The notes under the pieces are model-generated. The model saw only the letters and a list, made by a program, of their open reading frames with translations, did not search any database and was not told the DNA's origin. A DNA stretch of 22,461 nt from a virus, in IMG/VR virus record IMGVR_UViG_3300042882_000571, positions 1 to 22,461 of that record. The stretch is one strand, 5' to 3'. Below, one piece after another: positions 2,096 to 19,940 of this stretch. The position numbers and the translations under genes were made by a program. Numbering within the stretch: the first letter of the stretch is position 1; each line of letters opens with the position of its first letter.

Positions 2096-2114
2096 CAATA
2101 TCTTATCGAACGAT

Positions 2115-2399
2115 ATGGAAAAGACACGAAACGACAAAGGTCACCTGCTTCCTGGGCATGGTGGTCTAAAACCGAAAGGAGCGGTTAGTGAAAAGACAAA
2201 GATGTGGAACGAATTAGGCGAGTGGTTCACCCAACAGGGTGCAGCCAAGTGCATGCGCATAATGAATGACATGGAAGATGAAGAATACATCAAACACTAC
2301 ACTGCGCTGCTGGAATACTTCAAACCAAAACAGGCACGCATCACGCACAGCGGAGATGAAAAAGCACCGGTAATTATTCAGGTGCATTCAGACCTGTAA
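2115..2399 (+). CDS. Possible terminase small subunit-like protein
   Basis: This 94-residue protein begins with a basic, glycine-rich segment (KGHLLPGHGGLKPKGAVS) resembling the 'PGqsGnpkGrp' N-termini of small DNA-binding phage proteins. It continues with helices (MWNELGEWFTQQGAAKCMRIM, YIKHYTALLEYFKPKQAR) and ends in a short strand (APVIIQVHSDL). The combination of helical core, 'ALLEYFKPKQAR' and a terminal beta strand is like terminase small subunits of Bacteroidota phages, which recognise DNA and hand it to the large subunit. No large terminase follows, which weakens the call. It sits 19 bases after the cysteine-rich gene and 34 before the tail chaperone. An alternative is a small unrelated DNA-binding protein. 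Confidence 0.45.
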   Translation: MEKTRNDKGHLLPGHGGLKPKGAVSEKTKMWNELGEWFTQQGAAKCMRIMNDMEDEEYIKHYTALLEYFKPKQARITHSGDEKAPVIIQVHSDL

Positions 2400-2433
2400 C
2401 AAAAAGGAATCAAAAACTACAATAACACACAAC

Positions 2434-3033
2434 ATGAAGTTAAAGCTAAACATAGCAGCCAATGCCAAAGGTGTATCACTTGCTAAGTACATCGACTACC
2501 AGAATGCGGTCGATAAGGTGGAGCAGGTGCATATCATCACGGGCAAGAGCAGCGAAAGCATACGACTACTACAGGCGAGCATCATTGATGAAATCATCAT
2601 GCAGTTCGAAGCAGCCATTAAGTTAGGCAGTAACGACTTTGAACGGAAGGTGCGAGCCAACGCGATTGAGTTAGGGTTCATTCCTAACCTGCAAGAGATG
2701 ACCTTTGGTGAATATGTGGATTTGGATAGCGCATGCACCAACCTGTACCAAAATGGTAAGGTGAATGGTGAGGCTGCGCTGAAGATGATGTGCATACTAT
2801 ACCGCCCTATCAAAGCAAAGTTCGGCAACTACTACGACATTGAGCCATACAAGACTGAAGCAAAGCGCAAGTATGCGGATGCGGTGAAGGAGTTAACGCT
2901 TGACCATGTACTGAATGTGCTGCTTTTTTTTTCGACTTTAGAAATCGAGCTGTACAACAGTTCCCTAGAATATTTGGCAAAGGAGATAACGGAGATAGTG
3001 GCGGAGATGACAGCGGAACACCAGACGGCTTAG
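2434..3033 (+). CDS. Tail assembly chaperone-like protein (unshifted product)
   Basis: This 199-residue protein has a core (about residues 82-167) reading FIPNLQEMTFGEYVDLDSAC, then MMCILYRPIK, Y.IEPYKTE and LNVLLFFSTLEIELY. That pattern is seen in proteins encoded just upstream of tail genes in Bacteroidota siphophages. I read it as the counterpart of lambda gpG, which binds the tape measure during tail assembly. Codons 164-166 lie in a run of nine T (2924-2932). A -1 slip there continues into a conserved-looking downstream frame ending at 3197 (separate entry). The residue 1-80 region is helical (SSESIRLLQASIIDEIIMQF). The stop at 3031-3033 gives the short form. The functional call comes from pattern plus position; no partner can be seen directly. 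Confidence 0.6.
   Translation: MKLKLNIAANAKGVSLAKYIDYQNAVDKVEQVHIITGKSSESIRLLQASIIDEIIMQFEAAIKLGSNDFERKVRANAIELGFIPNLQEMTFGEYVDLDSACTNLYQNGKVNGEAALKMMCILYRPIKAKFGNYYDIEPYKTEAKRKYADAVKELTLDHVLNVLLFFSTLEIELYNSSLEYLAKEITEIVAEMTAEHQTA
2924..2932 (+). promoter_or_regulatory. Putative -1 frameshift slippery site (T9)
   Basis: Nine consecutive T lie in the chaperone gene. In its reading frame the codons are CTT TTT TTT TCG, so bases 2925-2931 form T TTT TTT, a canonical X XXY YYZ slippery heptamer. The -1 frame is open from 2904 to 3197 and encodes the expected second tail-chaperone domain. RNA polymerase slippage on the T run, or an assembly error of one base, are alternatives. Confidence 0.6.
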
Positions 3034-3197
3034 AGGTGTATGGATGGTTTCACATCATTGAGAGCCTTGCCGACAGGGACATAACGAAGTTTGATGCGGT
3101 AACAGAGCGCAACGCATTTGAAGTATTTACGCACTTGACATACTTAGCCGATTATGTGTATGTGCAGAAAGTAGAAATGAGAAAAAGACAACACTGA
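2931..3197 (+). CDS. -1 frame extension of tail chaperone (gpGT-like)
   Basis: After a -1 slip at the T9 run the ribosome would read 88 more codons, giving a fusion of about 254 residues. The extension starts with a polar, glycine/aspartate-rich linker (KGDNGDSGGDDSG). It then carries YGWFHIIESLADRDITKFDA, an aromatic/helical motif like those found in the small gene after the chaperone in Bacteroidota siphophages. This is the layout of lambda gpG/gpGT, where a minor shifted product recruits the tail tube protein. No ATG opens this frame; the only ordinary initiator is a GTG at 3036, three bases after the upstream stop, which would give a separate 53-residue protein by coupling. The stop overlaps the next ATG (TGATG). 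Confidence 0.6.
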   Translation, partial: FDFRNRAVQQFPRIFGKGDNGDSGGDDSGTPDGLEVYGWFHIIESLADRDITKFDAVTERNAFEVFTHLTYLADYVYVQKVEMRKRQH

Positions 3198-5800
3198 TGA
3201 AAAGTTACAACTATAGCTACAACGTACTTATCAATCGACTTGAGGCATTTGCTGCAGGTCACTTTTTGATACGCAGGTTCACGCACGGACAAATCGATAT
3301 GAGCGACCAACTTCAGGACGATCAATATCCGTTCATGCACGTTACGCCCGATACGATTGAGCCAGTGCCAGGTGCAATGAACTTTGGTTTTCACATCATG
3401 TTTGCGGACATCCCACGCGACAAGGAGTATAAGGCAGAGTACCAACGCGAGGTAATTAGTGATTGCATACGATTAGGGCAGGACTTGATTGCTGAAGTAA
3501 AGAATGGACTTGAGTTGTTTGGCTTCGATGTGCAGCTACTTGAAACGCCCACGTTCGAACCATTCATGGAAGAACAGAAGAACACGGTCACGGGTGTTGC
3601 ATTTACGTTAAAGCTTTCCGTTCCGTGGGACTGGAGTGCATGCGACATTCCTGCGATATGGGCAGTAGGTGGTGCAAGTGGTTCAGGTGGTGAAGGCACA
3701 GGCTACGGCATAACGCTTCGCACCAATGGTGTTGACAACGTAGTGCAAACGCTGCTTGATTTGGTTGAAGGCACGAACATAACCATAACTGATTTAGGCA
3801 ATGGACAAGTAAGAATCGATTCAACAGGTGGCGGTGGTGGCAGTGGTGAGTTTGTAAGCACTGAATACAATGCTAACCACACAACTGCAACAGGAAACCA
3901 ATATGTAGTAGGTGACAGGGTATGGTACAACGGCAACGTGTATCGATGCATTGCAAACAATGACGCATTGCTTCCAACCAACACAACGTACTGGACACTT
4001 GTTGCGGTAGGTTATAGGTTGCGTCAATCGCCTGTAGATTGGAATGCAACGAGCGGTGACTATCAAATACTGAATAAGCCAACCATTCCTGCGGCACAGG
4101 TTAACTCCGATTGGAATAGTGTAAGTGGTGTGTCTGAAATCTTAAACAAACCAACTATACCTGCGGCACAAGTCAATAGTGATTGGAATGCGGTTAGTGG
4201 TGTTGCTGAAATCTTGAATAAACCAACCATACCAACTACACTTGACAGCTTAACGGATGTGAACACGCCTGCACCAACAAACGGGCAGGTACTAACTTAC
4301 AACACAAGCACAGGTCAATGGATAGCATCTACACCTTCGGGCGGTGGTGGTGGCACGGTAAATAGCGTTGCACTTTCAATGCCTGCGCCTGCGAATCCTG
4401 CATTCAGCGTGGCAGGTTCACCCGTTACCAATACAGGCACACTTGCGGTTTCAGCAAATGGCACTATAGATCAATATGTAGATGGCACAGGCGCACTTCG
4501 CACAATGCCTTCAACAGGTGGTGGTGGTGGGCAAATCTTCTACTTCAATGGTAATACTTCGCAAGGTACAATTGCAGGTAATCCATACTACCAATTAGGC
4601 ACAGCAGCAGGCACAGGAGCAGCGGCTAACTTTACTCGTGCAACGACAGGTGTTATTGCGCGATTCATTACAGATGTGGGCAGCCCTAACCATCTTTTGT
4701 TACCTTCAGGTGTATGGACAATCGATGTGTACTTAAGCGAAACAGGTGGCGGCTCAAACAACGCTGAGATATTAGCCAAGCTATACACATACAACGGCAC
4801 AAGTTTCACGCTCATTGGCACTTCGCCAGTTGAGCAAATCACCAACGGAAACGTGATAGACCTGTATACGTTTGGTATTTCAGTACCTAACACGGTCACA
4901 CTTGCAACCGACCGCATACACATTGAGTTCGATATTCAAAACACCAATGGCAAGACCGTTACACTGTACACTGAGGCGAGCCGAGTTGGTGAAGTGCATA
5001 CCACTTATGCAATTGGTATAAGTTCATTGAATGGCTTAACCGATAACACGCAGAACTTTGCGGTTGGCACAGCAGGTACTGACTTCAATATCAATAGCGC
5101 AGCAGGTACACACACGTTTAACCTACCAACTGCAAGTGCGGCAAATCGTGGCTTGCTTTCAACAACCGATTGGGCTGCGTTCAATGGCAAGCAAAACAAC
5201 ATCGGACTAACTACGGTAGGTAATGCACTCGCCACGCTTACCAATCCTAATGCAATAACCTTCCTTCGCGTAAATGCCGATAACTCGGTTACGCCACGCA
5301 CACCTGCGCAAGTTGTAACTGATTTGGGAATAAGTTCAAACATTATTCTAAACCGCAACTTTGCAGATACAGCCGCAATCACGGGAACGATTGCAAATAC
5401 TTTAATATTTAGCGTGTTGATTCCTGCAAATACATTTCAAACAAATGATTGGATTACAACAAGACTTAATGCAAAAACTACGGGAACAGGGGGAGCGGGT
5501 TTTTTAGTTTTTTTAAATACCTCTGCCGCAATTGGGGGGACACAAATTGGCGGTTGGACGGCTGCCTTAAATACGGCTTCGATGTTTGAGCGAAACTTTA
5601 TGATTACTGCAACGGGCGCATCAGGGTCAATTAAGTACGCTCCTTTTACCGGTGCTTCTCCCTATACGCCACAAAACGTATCGTGGACATCACTCACTTT
5701 TAACACGACCATTGACCAGTATTTGGTTTTTACGATTCAAAATAACAACGTAGCAGGGTCATCAACTACACATGGAAATCTGATAACTATAACACGATAA
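3197..5800 (+). CDS. Tail completion-like protein fused to a modular fibre
   Basis: This is an 867-residue virion protein. Residues 1-152 form a compact domain (start MKSYNYSYNVLINRLEAF, end KLSVPWDWSACDIP) that resembles a stand-alone tail protein encoded after the chaperones in other Bacteroidota phages. Glycine-rich linkers then separate fibre modules. One is an aromatic module at about 218-270 (GDRVWYNGNVYRCIANND) like chitin/carbohydrate-binding CBM5/12 folds. Next come three 24-residue repeats from residue 281 (DWNA.SG...ILNKPTIP) and a SLTDVNTPAPTNGQ segment. A beta-rich domain spans about 450-610, with a further C-terminal beta domain at about 725-867. It most likely joins the tail tip and reaches towards the host surface. 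Its start overlaps the frameshift product's stop. The C-terminal 140 residues have different codon and base use. Confidence 0.65.
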   Translation: MKSYNYSYNVLINRLEAFAAGHFLIRRFTHGQIDMSDQLQDDQYPFMHVTPDTIEPVPGAMNFGFHIMFADIPRDKEYKAEYQREVISDCIRLGQDLIAEVKNGLELFGFDVQLLETPTFEPFMEEQKNTVTGVAFTLKLSVPWDWSACDIPAIWAVGGASGSGGEGTGYGITLRTNGVDNVVQTLLDLVEGTNITITDLGNGQVRIDSTGGGGGSGEFVSTEYNANHTTATGNQYVVGDRVWYNGNVYRCIANNDALLPTNTTYWTLVAVGYRLRQSPVDWNATSGDYQILNKPTIPAAQVNSDWNSVSGVSEILNKPTIPAAQVNSDWNAVSGVAEILNKPTIPTTLDSLTDVNTPAPTNGQVLTYNTSTGQWIASTPSGGGGGTVNSVALSMPAPANPAFSVAGSPVTNTGTLAVSANGTIDQYVDGTGALRTMPSTGGGGGQIFYFNGNTSQGTIAGNPYYQLGTAAGTGAAANFTRATTGVIARFITDVGSPNHLLLPSGVWTIDVYLSETGGGSNNAEILAKLYTYNGTSFTLIGTSPVEQITNGNVIDLYTFGISVPNTVTLATDRIHIEFDIQNTNGKTVTLYTEASRVGEVHTTYAIGISSLNGLTDNTQNFAVGTAGTDFNINSAAGTHTFNLPTASAANRGLLSTTDWAAFNGKQNNIGLTTVGNALATLTNPNAITFLRVNADNSVTPRTPAQVVTDLGISSNIILNRNFADTAAITGTIANTLIFSVLIPANTFQTNDWITTRLNAKTTGTGGAGFLVFLNTSAAIGGTQIGGWTAALNTASMFERNFMITATGASGSIKYAPFTGASPYTPQNVSWTSLTFNTTIDQYLVFTIQNNNVAGSSTTHGNLITITR
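4037..4233 (+). repeat. Three in-frame 72-base repeats in the fibre gene
   Basis: Copies begin at 4037, 4109 and 4181 with a period of 72 bases (24 residues). Each encodes DWN(A/S)(T/V)SG, three to four variable residues and ILNKPTIP, with PAAQVNS linking copies. DWN..SG repeats of this kind occur in phage tail fibres. Synonymous differences between copies (ttaactccgat against gtcaatagtgat) show that they are not recent exact duplications. Confidence 0.85.
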
Positions 5801-5801
5801 A

Positions 5802-6062
5802 ATGAAAAATATCCAACCACTTGACATTTGGAGCGATGGTGATACAAAGACAGCCGTATGTATCCGACTTTACATCAGCTATGATGACCTTGCAACACGG
5901 GCTGCTTTTCAATACGCCTTGTGCGATGTTGATGGTGTAACCATTTACGAAGGGCAAATACTTATTGAAGGTCAAACCTATTTAGACTGGGGCAGTAGTG
6001 GTGATTCAAACAATGAAGCATACACCATTGCAGCAGCACAATTGAACATCACACTTGCGTAA
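5802..6062 (+). CDS. Small tail-module protein, unknown function
   Basis: This 86-residue protein is predicted to be beta-rich and soluble. Visible segments include TAVCIRLYISYDD, AAFQYALCDVDGVTIYEGQI and LIEGQTYLDWGSSGDSNNE, ending in AQLNITLA. Proteins of this type lie between fibre and connector genes in Bacteroidota phages, and a virion or tail-completion role is likely from position alone. It begins two bases after the fibre stop, and its final TAA overlaps the next ATG (TAATGG), so it belongs to one tightly packed operon. No signal peptide or membrane segment is present. I cannot name a family with confidence. Confidence 0.6.
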   Translation: MKNIQPLDIWSDGDTKTAVCIRLYISYDDLATRAAFQYALCDVDGVTIYEGQILIEGQTYLDWGSSGDSNNEAYTIAAAQLNITLA

Positions 6063-6592
6063 TGGCAGATGCTTTTGAAGACATACTAAACGAGTACGCA
6101 GTCGCAGTCATAGAACGTGCGCAATCGAACTTACGCATCAAACGAAGGGTGCGTGGTAAGGTTGTCAATCGCGTTGCTTCAGGCACGTTGTCAAAGTCGC
6201 TATACTACAATCTCAAGTTTAGATACAACAAGCCAACGCTTGACTTCACTGTGTCTAATGACAAAGCAGGTAAGTATGCGGATGTGATTGAATATGGGCG
6301 CAGACCTTACCCGGGGCAACCGAACAAACGCCCACCTGTTAAGGCCATTGAGGACTGGATAAAATTGAAGCCGTTGAAGCTGCGCAATAACCAGGGGCAA
6401 TTTATTAAGTCAACTGATGACACTATAAGAGCAGCAGCATTACGCATCGCAATCAACATTGGTGAGCGAGGCATTGAGGGAATTAACTACTACCAAGAAG
6501 CAATCAATGACACTTGGGATGAATACAAGGATAAGTTGATAGAAGGCTATGTAAAAGGAATTGAAACACGATTACTACTAAACAAAAGATAA
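6062..6592 (+). CDS. HK97 gp10-like head-tail connector/tail completion protein
   Basis: This 176-residue protein has the central motif KYADVIEYGRRPYPGQPNKRPPV at about residues 76-98. That matches the 'YA..vEyG......P.pfl..A' signature of HK97 gp10-type minor tail/completion proteins, which cap the tail end that joins the head. The N-terminus is helical (FEDILNEYAVAVIERAQSNL), then basic (RIKRRVRGKVV). The C-terminal helices (DDTIRAAALRIAINIGERG, DEYKDKLIEGYVKG) are also typical of the family. Length is in the usual range. It overlaps the preceding stop and the following ATG by one base each. The assignment is by motif; unlike in standard siphovirus maps it lies after the fibre gene instead of beside the portal. 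Confidence 0.6.
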   Translation: MADAFEDILNEYAVAVIERAQSNLRIKRRVRGKVVNRVASGTLSKSLYYNLKFRYNKPTLDFTVSNDKAGKYADVIEYGRRPYPGQPNKRPPVKAIEDWIKLKPLKLRNNQGQFIKSTDDTIRAAALRIAINIGERGIEGINYYQEAINDTWDEYKDKLIEGYVKGIETRLLLNKR

Positions 6593-7878
6593 TGGCAATA
6601 ACAATAGAAGACCAGCCGTACAAATGGGCATTGCGAGGGCAGAAGCTAATGATAGTTGCAACGAGTGACCAAATCGGACAGGTTGGTTTCAAGTATGGTG
6701 TAGAGGTATATGTGCAAGGCGTGCCTTACAATTTCTATTTGACTCCTGCACCTGATGGTCGGTTGTACTTTGACATGCAGCCATTGTTTGACACGATGCG
6801 CAACTATGAGCCACAAAACTTTCACCTTGCCACCAATGATACGCAGCAAGATGATAGTGCATTGACCTACGACTTCCTACTAACGGAATGGTGGATAGTA
6901 GATGGGGTGTTTACTGAAAACGAAGGCAGCCGTGTGGATGGTGTAGATGGAATTGTAGTTAACGGATACTTCCAAGTGATAGATGGATACAAGCCGGAAG
7001 TAGAAACAGGTAGCCAAAAAGTGAAACAATCGCTCACAAGTACATCATCGTACATGATGAGTGACCGCAACAACAACACTTCGCCATTTTATTTAAGTCA
7101 GACATGGGGATTTGGTACTGCAACTAATAGCATTTGGATTCCTGTGCTTGAGAAAGACTATGGTGTGTTGTCGATACCCGGCAATGACACCTATCTAAGC
7201 AACAACGTAGCAACTCAATTCCGCATTACAATATTCAGTTCAGCAGGTGCGCCAACGAGCCAAACCATTGCGCTTAATGGTTACGATATTGAAAACCTGC
7301 CTGTGTATCCTGCCAACCTTAACGACTGGACAGGGCTAACTGTTGCCCCTTCACTATTTCCTAACTGGAGATGTTACACTGTTGGCATACTTAACGCTGC
7401 AAATGGTAGTGTAAGTGAAACCTACATCTTCTACAACGCACACGGCTACGGGCAGAGCGATTGCAATTGGGATAACATCAGACTTGGATGGGTTAACTCG
7501 CGTGGCGGTTGGGATTATTTCAACTTCACCAAGAAGTCAGAAACGACAAACGAGATTGAGCGCAAGACATACCGTAAGGTTTTGTTCAATGGCACACCGC
7601 AGATATTTACCTTAAACGACAGGTCGCTACTACAACGCCAGAACTTAGCGCAACAAGTAATAACCATTACATCGGATTACATCACCGAAGGCGAGTTTAA
7701 ACTACTACGATCGTTGCTCGTAAGCAATCAAGTCACGTGGTTAACTGAAGATGCAGGAAAGACTGTTGAAGTACCTGTAAACATAGAAGACACAAGTTTT
7801 GTCGAAAAGAAGAACCGCGATGGTAAGCAGTACAACGTAACTTTGAGAGTGCGCCTATCTAACCCATACTGGACATAA
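6592..7878 (+). CDS. Tail protein, possibly distal tail component
   Basis: This 428-residue protein is predicted to be mostly beta. The N-terminal part (IEDQPYKWALRGQKLMIVAT, then VQGVPYNFYLTPAPDGRLYF) resembles beta-sandwich ring proteins of the tail tip. The C-terminal part (YITEGEFKLLRSLLVSNQVT, then VEVPVNIEDTSFVEKKN and VTLRVRLSNPYWT) looks like a second small sandwich ending on an aromatic residue. It lies directly before the 1051-residue hub, separated by one base, which is where a distal tail (Dit-like) protein would be expected. There is no membrane segment or enzymatic motif. I have no specific family match, so the Dit assignment is inference from position and fold impression. Confidence 0.5.
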   Translation: MAITIEDQPYKWALRGQKLMIVATSDQIGQVGFKYGVEVYVQGVPYNFYLTPAPDGRLYFDMQPLFDTMRNYEPQNFHLATNDTQQDDSALTYDFLLTEWWIVDGVFTENEGSRVDGVDGIVVNGYFQVIDGYKPEVETGSQKVKQSLTSTSSYMMSDRNNNTSPFYLSQTWGFGTATNSIWIPVLEKDYGVLSIPGNDTYLSNNVATQFRITIFSSAGAPTSQTIALNGYDIENLPVYPANLNDWTGLTVAPSLFPNWRCYTVGILNAANGSVSETYIFYNAHGYGQSDCNWDNIRLGWVNSRGGWDYFNFTKKSETTNEIERKTYRKVLFNGTPQIFTLNDRSLLQRQNLAQQVITITSDYITEGEFKLLRSLLVSNQVTWLTEDAGKTVEVPVNIEDTSFVEKKNRDGKQYNVTLRVRLSNPYWT

Positions 7879-7879
7879 C

Positions 7880-10800
7880 ATGAACGGAGAAGTACAACTT
7901 ATAGTTAACACGGGCAGTCTTGAGCAAATCGATAGCATAAGCAATAATCCTGCATTTGTCGGCATTGGTGCGTTATCGCGTTTGATTGTGACAAGCAGAC
8001 CCGAAGTTGCAGCACTAACTACGGGTGATAGCCTTACGATTATGAATGCGGTTGGTGATAGCGTTGTAAAAACACTCAACTCACCACCTGCTCTCGATTC
8101 ACCTGTAGTTGGACAAACACGTTTGAACTTTGCAGGCACATGGGCAGATGACTATTCCGCTGCCGCAGGTGGTTACTTCATGTTGGGTGTTGGTGGTGAA
8201 TACTACTTAGACCTTTTTGAAAACGAAAGCATATCGCAGAACTGGAAGTTTCAAGACCTTAATAGCTTCACAGCGCAAGGTGCATTCACTCGGGAGTTTA
8301 GAGTGCCGTATAGCGCAGCTAATCAACTTGCACTTGGTGCGTTGTTCGATGTTAACGTAGATGCAGGTTCATCGAATTACTTTCACTACAAGTTACCTGC
8401 AGAGATTCGTGTTGACACGCTACCCATCGCGACAGGTTACGTGCGTGTGCGCAAGATTTACAAGCAGCAGAACCGCATTAACGAGGTTGAGTTAGCCTTC
8501 TATGCTGAAACACCCGACGTTGTGCGCAACATTGGCGAGAAGAAGCTCAAGGATATAACCGACCTGCCAAATCTTAATGAAGTAATCGATTACGATAACG
8601 TAACTGATGCAACTAACGAACGTATTTGGACACTACTTGAGCGTGGTGAGTTATGGAGCGAAACAAACGAATTGAATACACGCAGTCTATTTGACTTTGA
8701 CAATCCCGTATACCCTGCCGACCTAACGCCAGCGGTGCGCTATGATTATCTCTTTGAGCAAATACTAAAAGACGCAGGCTTTGAATTGGTGGCAGGCTCG
8801 TTATTGAACATACTGTCTACCTACTACATGCCGTGGTTGAATAATAAAACCAATATCGCAAGTGATTCATTCAATGCTTTTTTCTTTAGGGTGTACAATA
8901 GTGCTTCAGCATCATTAGGTAATAGCTCTACGCTAATTAACATGAATACTGAGGTATTCGATAACAGCGGTGACTTTACCCCTGGCACTGCAACGTATAC
9001 CACACCTGCTGATGGTTTCTACACCTTCCGCTTCCGTAACAAGTTTACCTTAACGGGCAACAATAACATCTCATACTTTCTTGACATCGATGGGGTGCTA
9101 ATCTTCTTGGACAATTTCGATGTGGTCAATAATCAAATCATTGACTTTACGTGGCGCATAGGCATTAATGCCGCAAGTGTTGTTCAGTTAAAAATGAAAC
9201 GCAATGAAAATGGTGCAGTCACTTTGGTTGCAGGTGATGGTACACTTGACACTTCTATTTGGGAATTAGTCCAAACCGATTTGCACTATGGTCAAACTAT
9301 TTTCTATGATCTAAATGCTCCTGATGTAAAGCAAATAGACTTCGTGACGGATGTGATTAAGATGCACAATTGCATCATCGTATCGGACAGGGCTGTACCA
9401 AACAAGATAAGCATAGTACCGCAAAACAATTATCTTGGAAGTGGTAATGTCTTAGACTGGACAAGTAAGCTTGACATTTCAAAGGATGTCACCATAGGCA
9501 GCACGGTGGATTTGCAAAAGGCAAAGTTTCAGTTTACATATACGGCAGGTGAAGATATCATAAGCAAGCAGTACAAAAATGTGAAGCGTGTGTATGGTGA
9601 CTATGAAGCGGTAGGCTACACGATTAATCCAGACACACTACCAAGTGATTTTGCCATTGGTGAGCAGAAGATACAACTCACTATGCAATCAACTCCATGT
9701 GGTGTTGTCAATGGTAGCACGGTAATCATTCCGATGTTCATCAATGAGCAGTTGGAATTCGTTCAGCCGGGCATGCGCTGTTTATTTGAAGCAGGCGTTG
9801 TAAACATTGAATTGCTTAATGACAACATCGGTTTTCCCACGGTGACGAGTGTGCCTGTTCTCAATCACTACAGCCAAGTGATAGCTGATTTGGATGACTT
9901 CGACTTGAACTGGGCACCTGAAGTACCACCTTATGCAATCAATGCAAACCCGTACAACAACCTGTTCAATTTGTATTGGCGCACCTTTATGAATTCGCTT
10001 TATAGTCCTGAAGCACGCATGATGGAAGCATCGTTTGCGTTATCGTTAAAGGACATAGCTACCTTTCAGTTTAGCGACAAGATTTGGATTCAGGATAGTT
10101 ATTGGCGCATCCTTGAGGTGAGCGATTACAAGGTGGGCGATGTGGAAAGCACAAAAGTAAAGTTGCTCAAGTTCTTGGAAGACACCGAGGATTGTTCAGC
10201 TATACCTTCAACCATATCAACCAATGGTGAAGTGAACTTTGTTGATGCCAACGATGACCCTGTCGCACCATCACAAGACTGCTGCACGCGATATGGTTAC
10301 AATTGGGATGAGGCAAATGCAGTGTGCTGGGCGTTTACACCAAACGGCAACACGCGACCAAATAACATATCGGGCAATTCTACTACACCGGCTGTGCGTG
10401 AATTACCAACTGCGGCACAAACAAGGGGTGTCTTGAACTCAGTGATCAATGGGCAAAATGTAGACATTGAGGTAAACAACCAAAACACATTAGCCGTTGG
10501 TGAGCGATTGGCGTTGACCAAGAATGTCAATGGTAGCAATTTATTAGGTAAAAATGTTACGACAAATCTTCCCGGCATGCACGTGGGTGGGGGTTACAGA
10601 GCAGGCAACCCTGCGGCAACTGAAGACGGATGGGCGCAGTTTGGGCAGTTTGCTTTACATCGCTATCCAACCATTACGACATCAGGGCAGGTTTCAAATC
10701 TTTTCATTGAAGGCATCACAGGTGAATACATAGACATGCCCGATGATACGCTATGGAGTTGCATGCTTAACGTGACCATCAAAGATGCAACAGGGGCGAG

Positions 10801-11035
10801 CATATCAAGGCTTCTACACTTTACACTGGAGAAGGTAGGTGGTGTTGCAAGTGCGAGTGCTATCACAACCATAAGCACGATAGGTGCAATAGGTGCAAAC
10901 GTGTTCACATTTGGAATAGACACAGCGACCAATCCTGATGAGCATCGAATAAATGTCACTTTCACGGGCGGCACTTATCCTGATGCCTTTGTCATCAATA
11001 CATCATTGCAATACCAACAAAACAAAACAGCATAA
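7880..11035 (+). CDS. Large tail hub/adhesin protein
   Basis: This 1051-residue protein is the largest in the window. Residues about 110-250 (GEYYLDLFENESISQNWKFQ, FTREFRVPYSAANQ, YVRVRKIYKQQNRINEVELAFYAE) look like the baseplate-hub domain found in Bacteroidota phage tails. Residues about 350-455 form a beta domain with a C1q-like signature (NMNTEVFDNSGDFTPG, then TTPADGFYTFRFRN), followed by more hub sequence. At residues 800-817 is a cysteine motif (DCC-TRYGYNWDEANAV-CW) next to a polar linker. The C-terminus (GMHVGGGYRAGNP and the beta-rich remainder) resembles receptor-binding tips. It probably forms the tail tip that contacts and enters the envelope. No lytic or protease motif was recognised. 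Confidence 0.6.
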   Translation: MNGEVQLIVNTGSLEQIDSISNNPAFVGIGALSRLIVTSRPEVAALTTGDSLTIMNAVGDSVVKTLNSPPALDSPVVGQTRLNFAGTWADDYSAAAGGYFMLGVGGEYYLDLFENESISQNWKFQDLNSFTAQGAFTREFRVPYSAANQLALGALFDVNVDAGSSNYFHYKLPAEIRVDTLPIATGYVRVRKIYKQQNRINEVELAFYAETPDVVRNIGEKKLKDITDLPNLNEVIDYDNVTDATNERIWTLLERGELWSETNELNTRSLFDFDNPVYPADLTPAVRYDYLFEQILKDAGFELVAGSLLNILSTYYMPWLNNKTNIASDSFNAFFFRVYNSASASLGNSSTLINMNTEVFDNSGDFTPGTATYTTPADGFYTFRFRNKFTLTGNNNISYFLDIDGVLIFLDNFDVVNNQIIDFTWRIGINAASVVQLKMKRNENGAVTLVAGDGTLDTSIWELVQTDLHYGQTIFYDLNAPDVKQIDFVTDVIKMHNCIIVSDRAVPNKISIVPQNNYLGSGNVLDWTSKLDISKDVTIGSTVDLQKAKFQFTYTAGEDIISKQYKNVKRVYGDYEAVGYTINPDTLPSDFAIGEQKIQLTMQSTPCGVVNGSTVIIPMFINEQLEFVQPGMRCLFEAGVVNIELLNDNIGFPTVTSVPVLNHYSQVIADLDDFDLNWAPEVPPYAINANPYNNLFNLYWRTFMNSLYSPEARMMEASFALSLKDIATFQFSDKIWIQDSYWRILEVSDYKVGDVESTKVKLLKFLEDTEDCSAIPSTISTNGEVNFVDANDDPVAPSQDCCTRYGYNWDEANAVCWAFTPNGNTRPNNISGNSTTPAVRELPTAAQTRGVLNSVINGQNVDIEVNNQNTLAVGERLALTKNVNGSNLLGKNVTTNLPGMHVGGGYRAGNPAATEDGWAQFGQFALHRYPTITTSGQVSNLFIEGITGEYIDMPDDTLWSCMLNVTIKDATGASISRLLHFTLEKVGGVASASAITTISTIGAIGANVFTFGIDTATNPDEHRINVTFTGGTYPDAFVINTSLQYQQNKTA

Positions 11036-11208
11036 TGGACTCAATCAAAAACACAATGCGCTATCTTCAGTTAGGCATCAAAGCAAATCCACAACACAAC
11101 CATTCGCTGCGTAAGTGGCAACGTGTGCTATGGTATGCAACGCTATATGTTTGGCGCACCTTCTTGTTTTTCGGACTGATTTATTTACTATCTAAACTAA
11201 TCTACTAA
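11035..11208 (+). CDS. 57-residue single-span membrane protein
   Basis: This small gene sits between the hub stop (TAATGG overlap) and the tape-measure ATG (TAATGG overlap), with one-base overlaps at both ends. The first 30 residues are polar and basic (MDSIKNTMRYLQLG, HNHSLRKWQR). They are followed by a hydrophobic helix rich in aromatics (VLWYATLYVW then FLFFGLIYLLSKLIY), giving a probable N-in single-span protein. The exact end-to-end fit within the operon and sensible codon use argue for a real gene. Function is unknown. Possibilities are a superinfection-exclusion or membrane-targeting peptide, or a small tail-tip component. Nothing in the sequence decides between them. Confidence 0.6.
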   Translation: MDSIKNTMRYLQLGIKANPQHNHSLRKWQRVLWYATLYVWRTFLFFGLIYLLSKLIY

Positions 11209-13433
11209 TGGCTGAACCAATTGTTCGGAGTTTCGTAATCGACACCAGTGAGAGTGAACAGAATCTCAAAGAGTTATCAAATCAAATTGATTCGACCGCT
11301 GCAACAATTAACAGCGCATCGCAATCATTTAATTTAGACACAAATCAAAGCGAACAAAATCTAAAAGACTTAAACGCACAAGTCAAAGATTTGGGCAGTG
11401 ATTTGAAGGAATTACCTAACGATGTTACTTTTCCGACCGAACCTTTTGAGAAAGCGAAAAATTCTTTAGATGATATTGGTGACAAAGCAGGAAGTGCTAA
11501 AGAGAAATTAGATGATTCTGCAAAGTCCGCAAAGAAGTTAGGTGAAAATGCTAAAGGTGCTGAATCAGGATTCAAGAAAGTAGGTGCTACCCTTAATAGT
11601 CTTGCTAAAGCCACAGGTGTAGTAGCGTTGTTGACCGCTGCGTTTAACACGGTCAAAAGTGTTATACAATCAACTCAACCAATTGCGGATGCATTTAGCG
11701 CAGCGTTTGGAACTTTTACGGATATAATTCGTGATGCCTTTACCTATATCAGTGAAAACGCAGGCACAGTAGTAAAATACTTTGAAGCAATCTTCAATGA
11801 CCCGGTACAAGCTTTAAAAGATTTTGGTGATGCTATCGTTGAGAACCTGATTGAACGATTTAACTCGTTTCTTGATACGCTTGGATTTATTGCAGAAGGT
11901 ATTAAGAATCTTTTCACTGGTGAATTTGATGCTGCACTTGAATCATTCAAGAATGCAGGTAAAGAATCGATTGATGTATTGACTGGTGTTAATGACACGG
12001 TAGATCGTGTAACTGATGCCGTGGTTGAAGGTGCAACTGCTTTTGCGAATTACGTTACCGAAACTTATAAGGCAAACGAAGCATTGGTGCAACTTCAAAA
12101 CAATGCAAAGCTTGCTGCTGCTGAACAAGCACGATTAGCCGAACAATACGATAGACAAGCGGAATTGTTAAGACAAACGCGAGATGATGAAAGCAAAAGC
12201 ATTCAAGACCGTATTGATGCTAATACCAAATTAGGTGAAGTATTAGAAAAACAAGAAAAAGCTGAATTGGCAGCAGCGCAAGCACAAGTTGCAGCAGCAC
12301 AAGCTACGTTTAACCACAATCAAACCATAGATAATCAGGTTGCATTGACACAAGCTTTAGCAGGCGTTGATGGTGTACGTGCTAAGATTGCAGGTTTAAA
12401 GTCTGAACAACTTGTAAACGAAATTGCGCTTAATAAGGAACTGAATGAATTAACTAAGGCACAAGTACAAAGCAATGCAGAACTTGCAATAGCGGAACAA
12501 AAGTTTGTTGCCGATAGTATTAAAAACGACTTAGAAAGGCTTAATGCGCAGCGTGCGGTTCTTGAACAAGAAAAGATTATTGCATTAGATGCACTACAAG
12601 CAGAGATTGAAAAATACAATCAAGGCACACAGGCAAGATTAGATGCTGAGATAGCATTTGCGCAAAAGAAACAGGAGATAGACCAAAACTTAGCAACTAA
12701 TACCATTGCCATTGAGGTTGCGCAAGATGCTCGGCTACTTGAATTACAAAGATTGCGTATTGATAATGGAGCAATCGACGCACAAAGTCGAATTGATTTA
12801 ATCAACGCTGAGTATGCAGAAAAGGAAAGGCTGTATGCGAATGATGCTGAAGTCTTAGAGCAAATTGAACTTGAAAAAGCGAACAAGATTAAGCTAATTG
12901 AAAAAGAAACTCAGCAAGCAAAGTTAGATTTCGTAAAGCAAACACTTGATGGTATAGCAAACATTACTGCTGCGTTTGGTAAAAACAACGAGAAGGCTGC
13001 AAAGGCTGCGTTTAAAGTTCAAAAGGCAATCAGTATAGCGCAAGCAACCATTAGCACATATGAATCTGCCAACTCAATTTTCAATAGCACAGCAAAGAAT
13101 CCTGTAACGGTAGCCTTTCCTGCTGCGCCTTTTGTTGCGGCAGGTGTTGCGGTTGCGGCAGGTCTTGCCAATGTAGCAACCATTGCACAACAGCAGTTTC
13201 AAGGTAGTAAACCTGCGGCTGGTGGCGGTGGTGGAGGTGGTGGTGGTAGTTTTGGTGGCGGTGGTGGTGGTGGGGATACAGGCTCTCAACCTGCGCAGTT
13301 CAACCCACTCGCCTCATCGTTCCTGCAAGATAGACCAGAGCAGTTAACGCCCCGTGCCTATGTATTAGCAGGTGATGTGGCAAGCCAACAAGAAGTGCGC
13401 ACTAAAGTGGAAGACCTATCAAGAATCGGATAA
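11208..13433 (+). CDS. Tape measure protein
   Basis: This 741-residue, largely helical protein sets tail length by running inside the tube. The N-terminus repeats a short helix (SESEQNLKELSNQID, then NQSEQNLKDLNAQVK). A hydrophobic segment lies at about residues 125-165 (ATGVVALLTAAFNTVKSVIQ), and long coiled coils fill about 290-610 (AAAEQARLAEQYDRQAELLR and similar). A second hydrophobic stretch is near 635-660 (FPAAPFVAAGVAVAAGLANV). A glycine-rich spacer (about 672-690) precedes the C-terminal tail AYVLAGDVASQQEVRTKVED, as in other Bacteroidota tape measures. By the usual 0.15 nm per residue, the tail would be about 110 nm. Arginine codon use differs from both neighbours. It lies after the hub, not before it, which is unusual. 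Confidence 0.8.
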   Translation: MAEPIVRSFVIDTSESEQNLKELSNQIDSTAATINSASQSFNLDTNQSEQNLKDLNAQVKDLGSDLKELPNDVTFPTEPFEKAKNSLDDIGDKAGSAKEKLDDSAKSAKKLGENAKGAESGFKKVGATLNSLAKATGVVALLTAAFNTVKSVIQSTQPIADAFSAAFGTFTDIIRDAFTYISENAGTVVKYFEAIFNDPVQALKDFGDAIVENLIERFNSFLDTLGFIAEGIKNLFTGEFDAALESFKNAGKESIDVLTGVNDTVDRVTDAVVEGATAFANYVTETYKANEALVQLQNNAKLAAAEQARLAEQYDRQAELLRQTRDDESKSIQDRIDANTKLGEVLEKQEKAELAAAQAQVAAAQATFNHNQTIDNQVALTQALAGVDGVRAKIAGLKSEQLVNEIALNKELNELTKAQVQSNAELAIAEQKFVADSIKNDLERLNAQRAVLEQEKIIALDALQAEIEKYNQGTQARLDAEIAFAQKKQEIDQNLATNTIAIEVAQDARLLELQRLRIDNGAIDAQSRIDLINAEYAEKERLYANDAEVLEQIELEKANKIKLIEKETQQAKLDFVKQTLDGIANITAAFGKNNEKAAKAAFKVQKAISIAQATISTYESANSIFNSTAKNPVTVAFPAAPFVAAGVAVAAGLANVATIAQQQFQGSKPAAGGGGGGGGGSFGGGGGGGDTGSQPAQFNPLASSFLQDRPEQLTPRAYVLAGDVASQQEVRTKVEDLSRIG

Positions 13434-13452
13434 TTAAAACTAAATTTGTAAC

Positions 13453-14049
13453 ATGGAAAAGAGAAAAGTAGTTAAGTGTGTAATAGATGAAGAAGGCCGT
13501 TTAGGCATTACGGCAATGGGCTTAGTTGATAGCCCTGCAATCGAAGAGAACTGGATTGCATTAAGCAAGATGCAACTCGCGAAAGTGGATGAGGAACGTA
13601 GGATGTTATACGGCCCTGCACTCATACCCGACAAAGAAATACTGCGCTATGACGAGAAGGGCGAGCCTTACTATGTCTACTTTGAAAAGGCAACAGTTAG
13701 CGCAATTGCGCATCAGTTCTTTAAAAAGAATCTGCAACACACGACCAATCTGCAACACGAGATACCTGTAACCGGTGTGACCGTGGTTGAATCATGGGTG
13801 AAAGAAGGCAAGATGGACAAGTCGATACAACTTGGATTGCCTGAGTTGCCCGATGGTACCTGGTTCATCGGAACAAAGGTGGATGAAGACCATGTGTGGG
13901 AAGATGTCAAAGAAGGCAAGGTGCGTGGCTATAGCATTGAAGGATTCTTTAATGAAGTTGGCGTGTCGATGAGTGGCGTTAAGAATTACGAGGCTGAGTT
14001 GGTGCTTGAGCTTGACCAGTTATTGAGTAACGTAAAACCAAACACATGA
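13453..14049 (+). CDS. XkdF-like prohead maturation protease
   Basis: This 198-residue protein has the layout of phage XkdF-type putative serine proteases. Motifs are MLYGPALIPDKEILRYD (about residues 51-67), YYVYFEKATVSAIAHQFFKK, the His-containing NLQHE (H102), VVESWV (112-116), LPDGTWFIGTKV and RGYSIEGFF (S161). H102 and S161 are the likely catalytic pair by analogy with prohead proteases. They cleave scaffold and capsid N-termini during head maturation. It lies about 1.4 kb before the scaffold-like gene, separated by an unknown gene and a regulatory gap. The stop overlaps the next ATG (ATGA). Length fits a stand-alone protease without fused scaffold. The TTGTAAC leader places the ATG at 13453. 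Confidence 0.7.
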   Translation: MEKRKVVKCVIDEEGRLGITAMGLVDSPAIEENWIALSKMQLAKVDEERRMLYGPALIPDKEILRYDEKGEPYYVYFEKATVSAIAHQFFKKNLQHTTNLQHEIPVTGVTVVESWVKEGKMDKSIQLGLPELPDGTWFIGTKVDEDHVWEDVKEGKVRGYSIEGFFNEVGVSMSGVKNYEAELVLELDQLLSNVKPNT

Positions 14050-15110
14050 TAAACATCGACAAGGCACTTGAGGTACTTGGCTTACCCCCCGAATTTGAAG
14101 CGTATAACGGGCAGATACAGCAGCGCATCAACCGAGGCTACACCATCTTTGAGAACAATGATTTTTCAAGTGGTAAAAACGTAATATCGTATTCAGTCGA
14201 AAGACGCGAAAACACGGAAATGTTTGGATTGTATCCACTCAACTTTGCGGCTATGATGCTTTACACAAGTGGTTACACACTTGAGGGCATGACCGACAAG
14301 GGCTATCACCTATTGCAAGAAAGAAAGGCTGTGCTACATGAAGCACCAAGCGGTCTTGCCGGGCAATTGATACGCTATGTGGAAAGCAATATTTATTTCA
14401 ATGTAGATCGCATTGAATACACGTATGAGCCATACGAAACCGTGGTTAATGGTGTTGCCGATGACATGGTGAATCCAATTGTGCGTGTGCAGTATAAGTC
14501 GCGTGTACTTAGCAAAGATTCAAAAGGCAATACTGTGGTGAAGTGGACAAGCCGTGGTGCGATAACGCCAAAGAAAAGGTTTAGGCGCGATGAGTTCTTG
14601 CAACTGGCAGGCATAACTGCGCAGGAGTTTGTATGGAACTGCCGCATTACTTATCCTATCGTGCCTGTTAAAGGTGAAACGCACATCACATCGATTGCAA
14701 TGGACATCGAACAGCCAACACCTACAAGTGTAAAAAGCACGGTGTACATCAACGGCATTGATGCAAATAAGTTTGACTACAAGAAGCTCATTAATTCATT
14801 TGGTCAAACGTACAGCGGCTACATGCAGCAGTACAGGTTGCACAATGGACAACGCGAAAACCAAACGGCAATGAATGTCTACGGCAGCACGCTTGACATC
14901 GGGCAGAATTCAACACAAGACTCAACCATCAATCTACAGGTGGGTGGTACAAATGCATGGAATAGCGACACTCGCACACTAACGTACAACGCCAGTCTTG
15001 TTGATGATGCTCGTCTACTTGCATACATGGAATTCTGGCCTGCACAAGGCAAGAATGAAAATTGCGGAAAATGGTTGAGCCTTGAAACAGGTATCGAAAG
15101 TTTGTATTAA
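14046..15110 (+). CDS. Unknown 354-residue phage protein
   Basis: The start is coupled to the protease stop by an ATGA overlap and the gene ends before a strong terminator. The first half is mixed helix/strand (IDKALEVLGLPPEFEAYNGQ, then FGLYPLNFAAMMLYTSGYTL, LLQERKAVLHEAP and YVESNIYFNVDRIEYTYEPY). The second half is beta-rich and polar (WTSRGAITPKKRFRRDEF, VPVKGETHITSIAMDIEQP, LHNGQRENQTAMNVYG). No signal peptide, membrane segment or enzymatic motif is visible. Its place between the maturation protease and the head operon suggests a virion or head-assembly role, but this is inference. I do not recognise the family, and its even length and clean frame support it as a real intact gene. Confidence 0.6.
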   Translation: MINIDKALEVLGLPPEFEAYNGQIQQRINRGYTIFENNDFSSGKNVISYSVERRENTEMFGLYPLNFAAMMLYTSGYTLEGMTDKGYHLLQERKAVLHEAPSGLAGQLIRYVESNIYFNVDRIEYTYEPYETVVNGVADDMVNPIVRVQYKSRVLSKDSKGNTVVKWTSRGAITPKKRFRRDEFLQLAGITAQEFVWNCRITYPIVPVKGETHITSIAMDIEQPTPTSVKSTVYINGIDANKFDYKKLINSFGQTYSGYMQQYRLHNGQRENQTAMNVYGSTLDIGQNSTQDSTINLQVGGTNAWNSDTRTLTYNASLVDDARLLAYMEFWPAQGKNENCGKWLSLETGIESLY

Positions 15111-15162
15111 CTTCGCTTCGTGGTAATACATAGAATAGTATTTAGGTTAAAGAGTAATTAAA

Positions 15163-15194
15163 AAGAAAGCCCCAAACGAGGGGCTTCTTTTTTT
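15163..15194. terminator. Bidirectional intrinsic terminator
   Basis: AAGCCCC at 15167-15173 pairs perfectly with GGGGCTT at 15180-15186 around a six-base loop. The right side continues into TTCTTTTTTT, and an A-rich run on the left gives a U tract on the other strand. It separates the rightward protease/354-residue transcript from the leftward RHH gene, so it can stop both. Confidence 0.85.
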
Positions 15195-15211
15195 AACCAA
15201 AACAATAACCA

Positions 15212-15343
15212 CTACAAAATACAAGCGCGAACGTAATCGGCTATATTCATCTTCGATGCCTTTGCACTTTTCACCACAGCCTTATATTGCTTCTCGGTCA
15301 ATCGTGCTGATACTTTTTTCGCAAGTGTGTCTGCTGCTTTCAT
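15212..15343 (-). CDS. Ribbon-helix-helix (CopG/Arc-like) putative repressor
   Basis: This is a leftward 43-residue gene. The sequence KKVSARLTEKQYKAVVKSA followed by KASKMNIADYVRACIL has the RHH layout: a short beta strand (VSARL), a first helix (TEKQYKAVVKSAKAS), the turn (KMN) and a second helix (IADYVRACIL). RHH proteins bind DNA as dimers through the strand, usually as repressors at repeated operator sites. It is the only leftward gene between 1051 and the right edge and lies opposite the start of the head operon. The bidirectional terminator at 15163-15194 would end its message. An inverted repeat (TGTTGGAT/ATCCAACA) in the divergent gap is a candidate operator. The ATG at 15343 has no strong ribosome site. 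Confidence 0.7.
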   Translation of the reverse strand: MKAADTLAKKVSARLTEKQYKAVVKSAKASKMNIADYVRACIL

Positions 15344-15367
15344 AAATAAAGGTATTTAATTACCCTG

Positions 15368-15398
15368 CTAAGATAAAACAAAATGTTGGATGTAACAA
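15368..15398 (-). promoter_or_regulatory. Putative promoter of the leftward RHH gene
   Basis: Read leftward, TTG at 15398-15396 is followed by 20 bases and TATCTTAG at 15375-15368, one mismatch from TAnnTTTG. Transcription would start near 15361, giving a leader of about 18 bases. The left arm of the inverted repeat (15384-15391) lies inside the spacer of this promoter. Confidence 0.35.
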
Positions 15399-15434
15399 AA
15401 CAGGCTGATTTCTACAATAGCCAAATATCCAACA
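15384..15434. promoter_or_regulatory. Inverted repeat, candidate operator of head operon/RHH gene
   Basis: TGTTGGAT at 15384-15391 and ATCCAACA at 15427-15434 form a perfect 8-base inverted repeat with a 35-base spacer. The right arm ends on the base just before the ATG of the scaffold-like gene. The left arm lies within the putative RHH promoter. The gap must also hold the head-operon promoter, since the upstream transcript is terminated at 15194, but no good rightward promoter match is visible. Confidence 0.4.
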
Positions 15435-16034
15435 ATGTCAAACATCAAAGAACAAATCAAATCCGTATTCAACAAGTACGGCATTGACCCTTCAAGTGTT
15501 GGTATCAAGTTCGAAGAAGAAGCACCTGCGGCAGAGCCGGCAACTGAGTTGCAGTTCGCAGTAGAAGGCACTTTGAGCGATGGTACTAAAATCTATTCTA
15601 CCGCAAACGAGTGGGTAGTGGGCGTAGACATCTACACTCAAGACGCTGAAGGCAATCCAGTACCTGTTCCTGCAGGCGAATACATGCTTGAGGATGGTGT
15701 AACCAAAGTAGTAGTAGGCGAAGACGGCATGGTAGCCGAAATCGAACGCGAAGAGCAATCAACCGAAATGAGCAGCGAAGACCTCGTTGCAGTTATTGGT
15801 CAATTGTCTGAGCGCATCGCTGCACTTGAAACCGAAAAGACTGAGCTTGCCGCTGCGGTTGAAACTGCAAAGAGCGAAGCACAGGCTGCTAAGACTGAAC
15901 TTGCTTCAGTTAAGAAAGCACCGGCTGTACCTTCAGTTAAGTCACAAGAATTTAAAAAGAATGCTCAACCTGTGGTTGCATCGAATGGTAACTCATTCAG
16001 CGACTTCATGGAAAGCATCCGTTCAAAAAAGTAA
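15435..16034 (+). CDS. Capsid scaffold-like protein
   Basis: This 199-residue acidic protein lies directly before the major capsid gene, the normal place for a scaffold. After a helical start (IKEQIKSVFNKYGID) there is a beta segment (VEGTLSDGTKIYSTANEWVV, then PVPVPAGEYMLEDGVTKVVV). This is followed by a coiled coil at about residues 110-157 (LVAVIGQLSERIAALETEKT and beyond) and a basic C-terminus (FKKNAQPVV, SFSDFMESIRSKK), which in other scaffolds binds capsid protein. It would hold the capsid shell during assembly and be removed by the XkdF-like protease. The gene is first after the regulatory gap. The opposite-strand and overlapping frames are shadows. Confidence 0.65.
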   Translation: MSNIKEQIKSVFNKYGIDPSSVGIKFEEEAPAAEPATELQFAVEGTLSDGTKIYSTANEWVVGVDIYTQDAEGNPVPVPAGEYMLEDGVTKVVVGEDGMVAEIEREEQSTEMSSEDLVAVIGQLSERIAALETEKTELAAAVETAKSEAQAAKTELASVKKAPAVPSVKSQEFKKNAQPVVASNGNSFSDFMESIRSKK

Positions 16035-16064
16035 ATTAATTCACCTCATAAATTTTATTTAAAA

Positions 16065-16961
16065 ATGCCAACAACAACTTCACTCACCACCACCTATGCA
16101 GGTGAATTAGCTGGTGAAATCGTAGCAAAGGCACTCTTGTCAAACGTATCTGCACAGTACGTGACAATGAAGCCTAACGTACCTTACAAATCAGTAGTAC
16201 GTAAAATTGATGACACTGTAACATTTGCCGCAGGCACTTGTGATTTCACGCCAACAGGCACGATCACTTTGACCGAGCGCATCTTGACTTTGGAAGAGTT
16301 CCAAGTTCAACGCCAAATCTGTAAGAAAGATTTCTTCATTGACTGGACAACTGCCGATGTAATGAGCGGTCGTGTTAATACACAAATCCAAGACGCTATC
16401 ATTGGTCGCTTGGTTGGTGGTATTGCTGCAGCTAACGAGACCATCATGTGGTCAGGTGTTAACGCAACAGCAGGTCAATACGATGGTTTCGAAACTTTGA
16501 TTAAGGCAGGTGGTTCAGGTGCTGTATCTGCAGGTTCAGGCGCATTGAGCGATACTAACATCATCGCGACCATTTGGGATGTAATCAACACTGCTCCTGC
16601 CGCTGTAAAAGGTGCTGCTGAAAAGCCTGCAATTTACATGGGACAGGCTGCATGGGAAGCTTACATGCAAGCGCAAATTGCTGCCGGCAATGGATGGTAT
16701 TTGACAGGTGGACCAGAGGTTAGCCGTCGTTTCGTAGGAATGTACGAAATCTACGTTTGCCCGGGTATGACTGCAAACAACATCATCTTCGCACAGCCAA
16801 GCAACTTGATGCTCGGTACATGGCAAGAGAACCAAATGAACGAAGTGTTCATTTTGGACATGCAGAACTTGGATGGTTCACAGAACGTTCGTTACGGTGC
16901 TCGTTTCTACATCGGAGCGCAGATTGCTGTTGCTGAAGACATCACCTACTGGGGAGCATAA
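16065..16961 (+). CDS. Major capsid protein
   Basis: This 298-residue protein is the likely head shell subunit. The N-terminus is polar (MPTTTSLTTTYAGELAGEIV). The core has long mixed segments such as ILTLEEFQVQRQICKKDFFI and IGRLVGGIAAANETIMWSG (about residues 110-128). The C-terminus (NVRYGARFYIGAQIAVAEDI and TYWGA) matches the end of HK97-fold capsid proteins in Bacteroidota phages, where '.yga.f..G.qva..e...yy' is common. It follows the scaffold-like gene by 30 bases and precedes a hairpin that may lower downstream transcription, fitting its need for high expression. The codon choice is more even and uses preferred codons (GGT, CGT, AAC). Length is normal for the family. Confidence 0.85.
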   Translation: MPTTTSLTTTYAGELAGEIVAKALLSNVSAQYVTMKPNVPYKSVVRKIDDTVTFAAGTCDFTPTGTITLTERILTLEEFQVQRQICKKDFFIDWTTADVMSGRVNTQIQDAIIGRLVGGIAAANETIMWSGVNATAGQYDGFETLIKAGGSGAVSAGSGALSDTNIIATIWDVINTAPAAVKGAAEKPAIYMGQAAWEAYMQAQIAAGNGWYLTGGPEVSRRFVGMYEIYVCPGMTANNIIFAQPSNLMLGTWQENQMNEVFILDMQNLDGSQNVRYGARFYIGAQIAVAEDITYWGA

Positions 16962-16970
16962 TTAATAATC

Positions 16971-16994
16971 AAGGGGGTGTAACAGCCCCCTTTT
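16971..16994 (+). terminator. Partial terminator after the capsid gene
   Basis: AAGGGGG at 16971-16977 pairs with CCCCCTT at 16986-16992 around an eight-base loop, followed by only four T in total. The stem is strong but the U tract is short, so it probably stops only part of transcription and favours capsid mRNA over downstream genes. Confidence 0.65.
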
Positions 16995-17007
16995 AAAACT
17001 ATACAAA

Positions 17008-17550
17008 ATGGCTTGTGAATTAACTACAGGTTTTACACTCGGATGCCTTGAAGGTATCGGAGGTGTTAAAGAAGTATTGATTGCTAACTACGCAGACTTT
17101 GAAACAGGTATCACCTATGGTGGTACTGATGGCGAAGTGGATGGATTGCCAACGGCAACTATCTATCGTTACGTTCCTTTCCGCAACAGCGGTTCATACA
17201 TTGAGACCGTAAACAAAAACTTGGAAACAGGTACATTGTTTTTTTCTCAAGAAGTTGGATGGACTTTCGGTAAGTTGAACCAAGACATGCGCAACGAATT
17301 CTTGAACGTAGCAAAAGCAAAGATGATTGTGTTTGTTCGTACAAATGATGACCAAATCTTGTTGGTTGGTGCAGGCGAAGGCTCGCAGCTGACCGCAGGT
17401 ACTGTTCAATCGGGTGCGCAAAAGGCAGATTTGATGGGTTATCAGGTTACAACTATTGCAGAAGAACTTGCTCCTGCTGTACACCTTGAGCCATTCACTA
17501 CTGTGCCTTTCGATAACTTCGCTGGCATTACGGTAAGCCCTGCTTACTAA
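17008..17550 (+). CDS. Probable major tail (tube) protein
   Basis: This 180-residue protein starts MACELTTGFTLGCLEGIGGV and continues KEVLIANYADF, a pattern I associate with major tail or tube proteins of Bacteroidota siphophages ('MaC.lT.gf..gC.d..GGik.vyl.n'). The middle part (SYIETVNKNLETGTLFFSQEVGWTF) and AKAKMIVFVRTND fit a beta-rich subunit; the C-terminus (YQVTTIAEELAPAVHLEPF) is also beta-like. Tube proteins stack in rings around the tape measure. It lies between two terminator hairpins (16971, 17582), as expected for an abundant product needing its own dosage. An alternative is a head decoration protein, given its place next to the capsid gene and far from the tail module. Confidence 0.55.
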   Translation: MACELTTGFTLGCLEGIGGVKEVLIANYADFETGITYGGTDGEVDGLPTATIYRYVPFRNSGSYIETVNKNLETGTLFFSQEVGWTFGKLNQDMRNEFLNVAKAKMIVFVRTNDDQILLVGAGEGSQLTAGTVQSGAQKADLMGYQVTTIAEELAPAVHLEPFTTVPFDNFAGITVSPAY

Positions 17551-17581
17551 GAATTGTTTTCCGTTGTGTTCTTGTTGTATT

Positions 17582-17612
17582 AAAGGGGGCAGGTTTACAC
17601 TTGCCCCTTTTT
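17582..17612 (+). terminator. Intrinsic terminator after the tube gene
   Basis: AAGGGGGCA (17583-17591) pairs with TGCCCCTTT (17602-17610), including one G-U pair, around a short loop (GGTTTACACT), followed by a T run to 17612. It lies just before the ATG at 17625, so read-through must feed the portal genes unless there is a further promoter. Confidence 0.7.
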
Positions 17613-17624
17613 CAAATAAAGTCA

Positions 17625-19932: not shown

Positions 19933-19940
19933 TTACAACT

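Follow-up and report, generated by a model that had tools for sequence, protein, structure and literature searches.

The question raised by this locus is how a conserved protein domain that lacks a conserved start codon of its own would come to be made. The stretch of DNA analysed here, the window, is a 22,461-base IMG/VR virus fragment represented by sequence only, with no reads. An open reading frame (ORF) for a 199-aa protein, G (2434-3033), reads CTT TTT TTT TCG through an uninterrupted run of nine T at 2924-2932, and the T_TTT_TTT heptamer within it (2925-2931), in zero-frame phase, fits the X_XXY_YYZ pattern for -1 ribosomal frameshifting. The -1 frame is open from 2904 to 3197 and includes YGWFHIIESLADRDITKFDA; a -1 shift at the heptamer gives a 254-aa product, GT, in which the first part of G is joined to a second domain, T. 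That open frame contains a single GTG, at 3036, 3 nt past the G stop, and no ORF of at least 60 aa starting with ATG, GTG or TTG. A preliminary description of the window had already pointed to the run and its heptamer, to the extent of the open -1 frame and to products of 254 and 199 aa, all of which are reproduced from the sequence; its two further statements, that 2931-3033 is coding in two frames and that the second domain has no ATG of its own, are borne out by the relatives, in which synonymous freedom drops in both frames and candidate starts are not conserved. The features on which the argument draws are these:

2434-3033, + strand: ORF for the frame-0 product G, 199 aa, PHROG 32199 (unknown function); AF2 model with pLDDT 87.6.
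2924-2932, + strand: T9 homopolymer, the putative slip site; 9 T in 152/154 and 10 T in 2/154 distinct relatives.
2925-2931, + strand: heptamer T_TTT_TTT in frame-0 phase; no tree changes at its three wobble positions.
2931-3033, + strand: dual-coded overlap, 103 nt; synonymous entropy 0.24-0.31 bits inside, against ~1.0 outside.
2931-3197, + strand: -1 frame T domain, 88 aa and stop, which joined to the G part would make the 254-aa GT.
2939-2941, + strand: UAG in the third (+1) frame, two codons past the run; in 136/143 relatives.
3197-5800, + strand: next gene, its ATG overlapping the T stop (TGATG); a long-ORF ATG lies no more than 8 nt from the T stop in 131/143 relatives.
11208-13433, + strand: probable tape-measure gene, 8 kb downstream of GT (phrog_3336, E 1.2e-12).

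A first-order Markov model of the window predicts 0.25 runs of at least nine T per window, so that the run is not improbable by itself and the weight of the case rests on comparison with relatives. These were gathered from viral contigs (four protein queries), bacterial genomes and sequenced phages, and provide 154 distinct G sequences forming 66, 41 and 17 clusters at 90, 70 and 50% amino acid identity. The set is confined to sequences with an in-frame T7; a deep relative (L221), one contig with a deletion (L069) and contigs that end too early are left out. The slippery site is found at the same place in all 154, as the preliminary description had proposed to check: with in-frame T7 required for entry, the run is T9 in 152 and T10 in two, and never shorter than nine. 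The codon ahead of it is CTT, GTT, ATT or TTT, and the codon after it TCG, TAT, TAC, TGG, TCA, TGC or TTG. The third positions of NTT/TTT/TTT undergo no change on the protein tree of the 154 relatives; the median over 70 degenerate columns is 19.5 changes, the minimum in the other 67 is 4, and at nine other Phe columns TTT and TTC interchange 10-24 times on the same tree. No other heptamer occupies the site among the 154, but since an in-frame T7 was the entry condition, the real test is that, apart from contigs that end too early, just two sequences failed to enter the set. In L221 the run lies one codon position later (GGT TTT TTT TTG), is again exactly nine T long, and has the T domain in the -1 frame. 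In L069 (2475-3137) an in-frame deletion removes run and overlap together and fuses G to T in a 220-aa frame; as its junction is limited to a single contig, the fusion could be either genuine or an artefact of assembly. Chromosomal copies of the gene are rare: 3/397 genomes of the Winogradskyella family and 2/395 in a phylum-wide sample, one of the latter marginal.

Both frames are under constraint where they overlap. Across the 55 distinct sequences of the window's clade, synonymous entropy averages 0.98 bits ahead of the run, falls to 0.24 bits (frame 0) and 0.31 bits (-1 frame) inside the overlap, and is 1.08 bits in the -1 frame past the G stop (Mann-Whitney p 2e-9 and 7e-7 for these contrasts). 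In a second clade (L172-L215; 23 distinct sequences), the overlap is 241-256 nt long, so that very little of T lies outside it, and entropy drops from 0.52 to 0.08. Overlap length varies from 52 to 268 nt among 143 distinct T domains, with a median of 169. The first residue read in the -1 frame is only ever Leu or Phe in the 154 distinct sequences; within T, R4, G38, W39 and L69 are invariant and R6 nearly so in 27 diverse members.

These facts also speak strongly against two simpler accounts. Homopolymers are prone to errors, and the window is a metagenomic contig, so that the break in frame might be an error of sequencing or assembly, or the mark of a decayed gene. The same run and the same relative frames nevertheless recur in 154 distinct sequences, sequenced isolates among them, and purifying constraint acts on both frames, which for practical purposes rules out error and decay alike; a misread run length in particular is very unlikely because T9 is found in many separate assemblies as well as in the isolates P12024S and P12024L. 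That T might be a separate gene, with its own start codon or translated by coupled reinitiation near the G stop, has in its favour the GTG at 3036 and the annotation of its counterpart in Nonlabens phage P12024S, gp39, as a 55-aa gene with an ATG start. It is a highly improbable account all the same: ATG precedes the T core in only 8/143 distinct T domains, and any of ATG, GTG and TTG in 56/143; it is at the run, not at a start codon, that the -1 frame becomes conserved and synonymous freedom is lost; and in L187-type relatives T lies almost wholly within the G reading frame, ending 7 codons past the G stop. With a conserved run, dual-coding constraint and no independent start, recoding into the second domain is strongly supported, and the sequence provides for two products with a common N-terminus, the longer of which would arise by a -1 shift on the slippery heptamer. 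Recoding at the T run is accordingly very likely on these comparisons.

The picture that these relations suggest is of most readings of the mRNA ending as G (199 aa), with a minority switching to the -1 frame at the U9 run to yield GT (254 aa), where the last helix of G would at its end lead on into T, a helical domain of a different kind. If lambda is a guide, G would serve as the coat of the tape-measure protein, and recruiting the tail-tube subunit would fall to the rarer GT. Taken as a whole, slip route and chaperone role included, a programmed -1 recoding site that generates G and a rarer GT is the probable reading of the locus. The existence of both products, their ratio, the manner of the slip and the chaperone function are what we infer from these patterns. 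The preliminary description had proposed a -1 frameshift in a tail chaperone: programmed -1 recoding stands, on the evidence of the run, the dual coding and the starts, while "ribosomal" names one of two candidate routes.

Which enzyme slips is the less easily answered part. Tandem -1 slippage of two tRNA-Phe on U_UUU_UUU is slightly favoured over insertion by RNA polymerase slipping on T9, and the two could coexist. The stimulators that commonly, but not obligatorily, accompany -1 ribosomal frameshifting are not in evidence: alignments of 53 and 22 sequences, from two clades, give no signal of conserved downstream RNA structure, and the window shows no downstream structure beyond that of shuffled sequences (pseudoknots lie outside the models in both cases); a Shine-Dalgarno-like motif upstream of the run is absent in 78/78 sequences. 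One extreme z score, for the stretch from -60 to 0 upstream in the clade of the window, was disregarded, as its shuffles had almost no spread. In E. coli, U_UUU_UUU is a modest slip site, less shift-prone than A_AAA_AAG, and runs of nine A or T are the classical bacterial substrate of transcriptional slippage (PMC5009743); an uninterrupted A/T run of about nine or more (a threshold from the same source) that is selectively kept is just what this locus has.

With no stimulatory structure or Shine-Dalgarno-like motif and a run never shorter than nine, slippage by RNA polymerase is a serious rival and a real possibility, though not the preferred one: one U would be inserted into some transcripts (or two removed), normal translation of which would yield GT, and transcripts shifted in the opposite direction would end two codons past the run at the conserved UAG. 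Besides the missing stimulator and the length of the run in all 154 distinct sequences, it is favoured by L221, in which the run has moved by one codon position and yet is again exactly nine T; by the rarity of such runs, the T9 at the slip site being the sole run of at least nine T in 158.8 kb from 15 relatives; by the propensity of E. coli RNA polymerase to slip on T7 and T8 (~5 and 10%), poly(T) being preferred (PMC6260861); and by the second run, A9-A11, conserved in the portal gene of the window's clade. In addition, changing the seventh T to C would be silent in both proteins in the 88 sequences that have Leu first in the -1 frame, and would turn the heptamer into U_UUU_UUC, which has been proposed as the SPP1 site (PMC6316719), but C is never seen there; Phe UUU may, however, simply outslip UUC. 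Likewise, the third-frame UAG in 136/143 relatives, which would suit polymerase slippage, is also explained by the Leu/Phe-Arg pair required in two frames, and the eighth and ninth T by the need for a hydrophobic residue in one frame or the other; known G/GT shifts, moreover, are described as ribosomal (PMC5009743). Since the two extra Ts can also be accounted for as second positions of hydrophobic codons in one or the other frame, the ribosome keeps its slight preference. The UAG of the window (2939-2941) may itself follow from dual coding, or it may end translation of oppositely shifted transcripts. With its run strictly kept and no ribosomal stimulators detected, the locus offers a clean natural test of ribosome against polymerase slippage.

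The only other run of eight or more in the window is A11 at 19343-19353, in the 646-aa portal ORF (17992-19932), where the portal domain gives way to a C-terminal one. Among 66 distinct close relatives (L308-L387), it is A11 in 40, A10 in 25 and A9 in one; its Lys codons are always AAA, against an AAG:AAA count of 656:342 elsewhere in these sequences, and in each of the other two frames a stop follows after 0-9 codons. The run is absent in the Nonlabens phages and in more distant relatives with a readable portal. Judged by its sequence, this run might be another place of slippage, at which some of the portal proteins would be cut short; no transcriptional slippage tied to a phage portal is evident in the open-access literature, the coverage of which is incomplete. 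On a bolder reading, which is less likely than not, a large group of Bacteroidota phages might set its tail-chaperone ratio through polymerase slippage on T9 in place of ribosomal slippage, with transcripts divided among three frames (G, GT and a G cut short at UAG), and A9-A11 might likewise set a ratio of full-length to shortened portal in the clade of the window.

That G and GT form a tail-assembly chaperone pair is probable by analogy. In PHROGs, G matches confidently only phrog_32199, and no Pfam match above cutoff connects it with a named chaperone family; searches of Pfam and PHROGs with T return only chance matches and the Nonlabens family phrog_38404. The run falls within the long last helix of the G model, the ending of which is therefore not the same in G and GT. 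A Foldseek search of the PDB with G yields nothing significant; a second-look structural alignment has the HK97 tail chaperone 2ob9 as its top row, with a weak match (Z 4.0, 58 residues, rmsd 3.3), and chaperone names appear at ranks 45-46 among weak predicted-structure matches. T is modelled as a small helical domain (pLDDT 77.5), for which Foldseek finds no match in the PDB. Neither does the pair lie just upstream of the tape measure and beside the major tail protein: five ORFs intervene before the tape-measure gene, for which reason the pair is described as working like G/GT and is not filed as a member. Architecture, sizes and shift speak for a chaperone pair, but gene order does not.

A recoded gene with some other structural or regulatory job near the terminase genes would accommodate a family that is unnamed in any library used, a gene pair that comes after the terminase in P12024S and a tape measure 8 kb away in the window; it is nonetheless unlikely, in that a small G with a rare -1 extension into a small helical domain is the chaperone architecture, and in that HK97 heads the second-look alignment and chaperone names recur among the predicted structures, weak as these matches are. 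The likeness to a lambda G/GT chaperone claimed in the preliminary description accordingly holds for the two-frame architecture and gains a weak structural lead, but not for a place beside the tape measure or for the family, phrog_32199 being of unknown function. The gene order of the window from 2100 to 20510 is itself unusual: chaperone-like pair, fibre-like gene, tape measure, protease, capsid, then portal.

If the chaperone reading is right, a gene family that is widespread in Bacteroidota phages but has no name shares the G/GT frameshift architecture, and PHROGs 32199, 38404 and 25418 gain a testable function; no frameshift of this kind in Bacteroidota phages is reported in the open-access literature, coverage of which is incomplete. 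The putative GT product is overlooked by gene callers, and an isolate record presents it as two unrelated hypothetical genes.

The pair resembles gpG/gpGT of lambda and the corresponding proteins of HK97 in combining a small protein with a rarer -1 extended form, in the position of the shift near the end of G and in the additional C-terminal domain. The slippery site of lambda is G_GGA_AAG; the present family differs from it in its run of at least nine T, and also in overlaps of 52-268 nt, a tape measure that is not adjacent and the lack of Pfam-detected homology. In lambda, GT is made at a low level, with a ratio of ~30:1 (PMC5009743). Overlaps in annotated actinophage chaperone genes, with a mean distance of 26 nt from slippery site to zero-frame stop (PMC10885494), are much shorter than those found here. 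SPP1 gp17.5/gp17.5* shares a U-run heptamer and a putative -1 shift in a chaperone gene, on UUUUUUC (PMC6316719), but there the run is not the uninterrupted nine or more seen here, the host phylum is another, and the profile libraries used detect no homology.

A distant homologue of G that continues into a C-terminal part resembling T occurs in Duneviridae (Flavobacterium phages 2A and laban6-1) and in Bacteroides phage BT-TP2 (PHROG 25418) as one continuous ORF of 270-301 aa that needs no shift; the G part aligns with an hhalign probability of 95.7% (E 1e-8), and the T part stands in the right order with a weak match (E 0.046, probability 1.2%). Flavobacterium phage 6H gp10 was considered as a relative with U_UUU_UUC and rejected: 2A has one continuous ORF, and 6H differs locally. 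The frame of 6H gp10 (L303, 10047-10927) is broken relative to the 293-aa ORF of 2A, perhaps through a problem with the 6H sequence.

The direct homologues are gp38 and gp39 of Nonlabens phages P12024S and P12024L, with T9 in the same codon phase and T in the -1 frame; their record lists two unrelated hypothetical genes and notes no frameshift. In P12024S (L388, 23136-23830; T9 at 23578) they are the two halves of a single frameshifted gene. What is new against these known systems is a putative recoding site overlooked in cultured Nonlabens phages, overlaps of up to 268 nt, and G-T homologues in Duneviridae that are joined in a single ORF.
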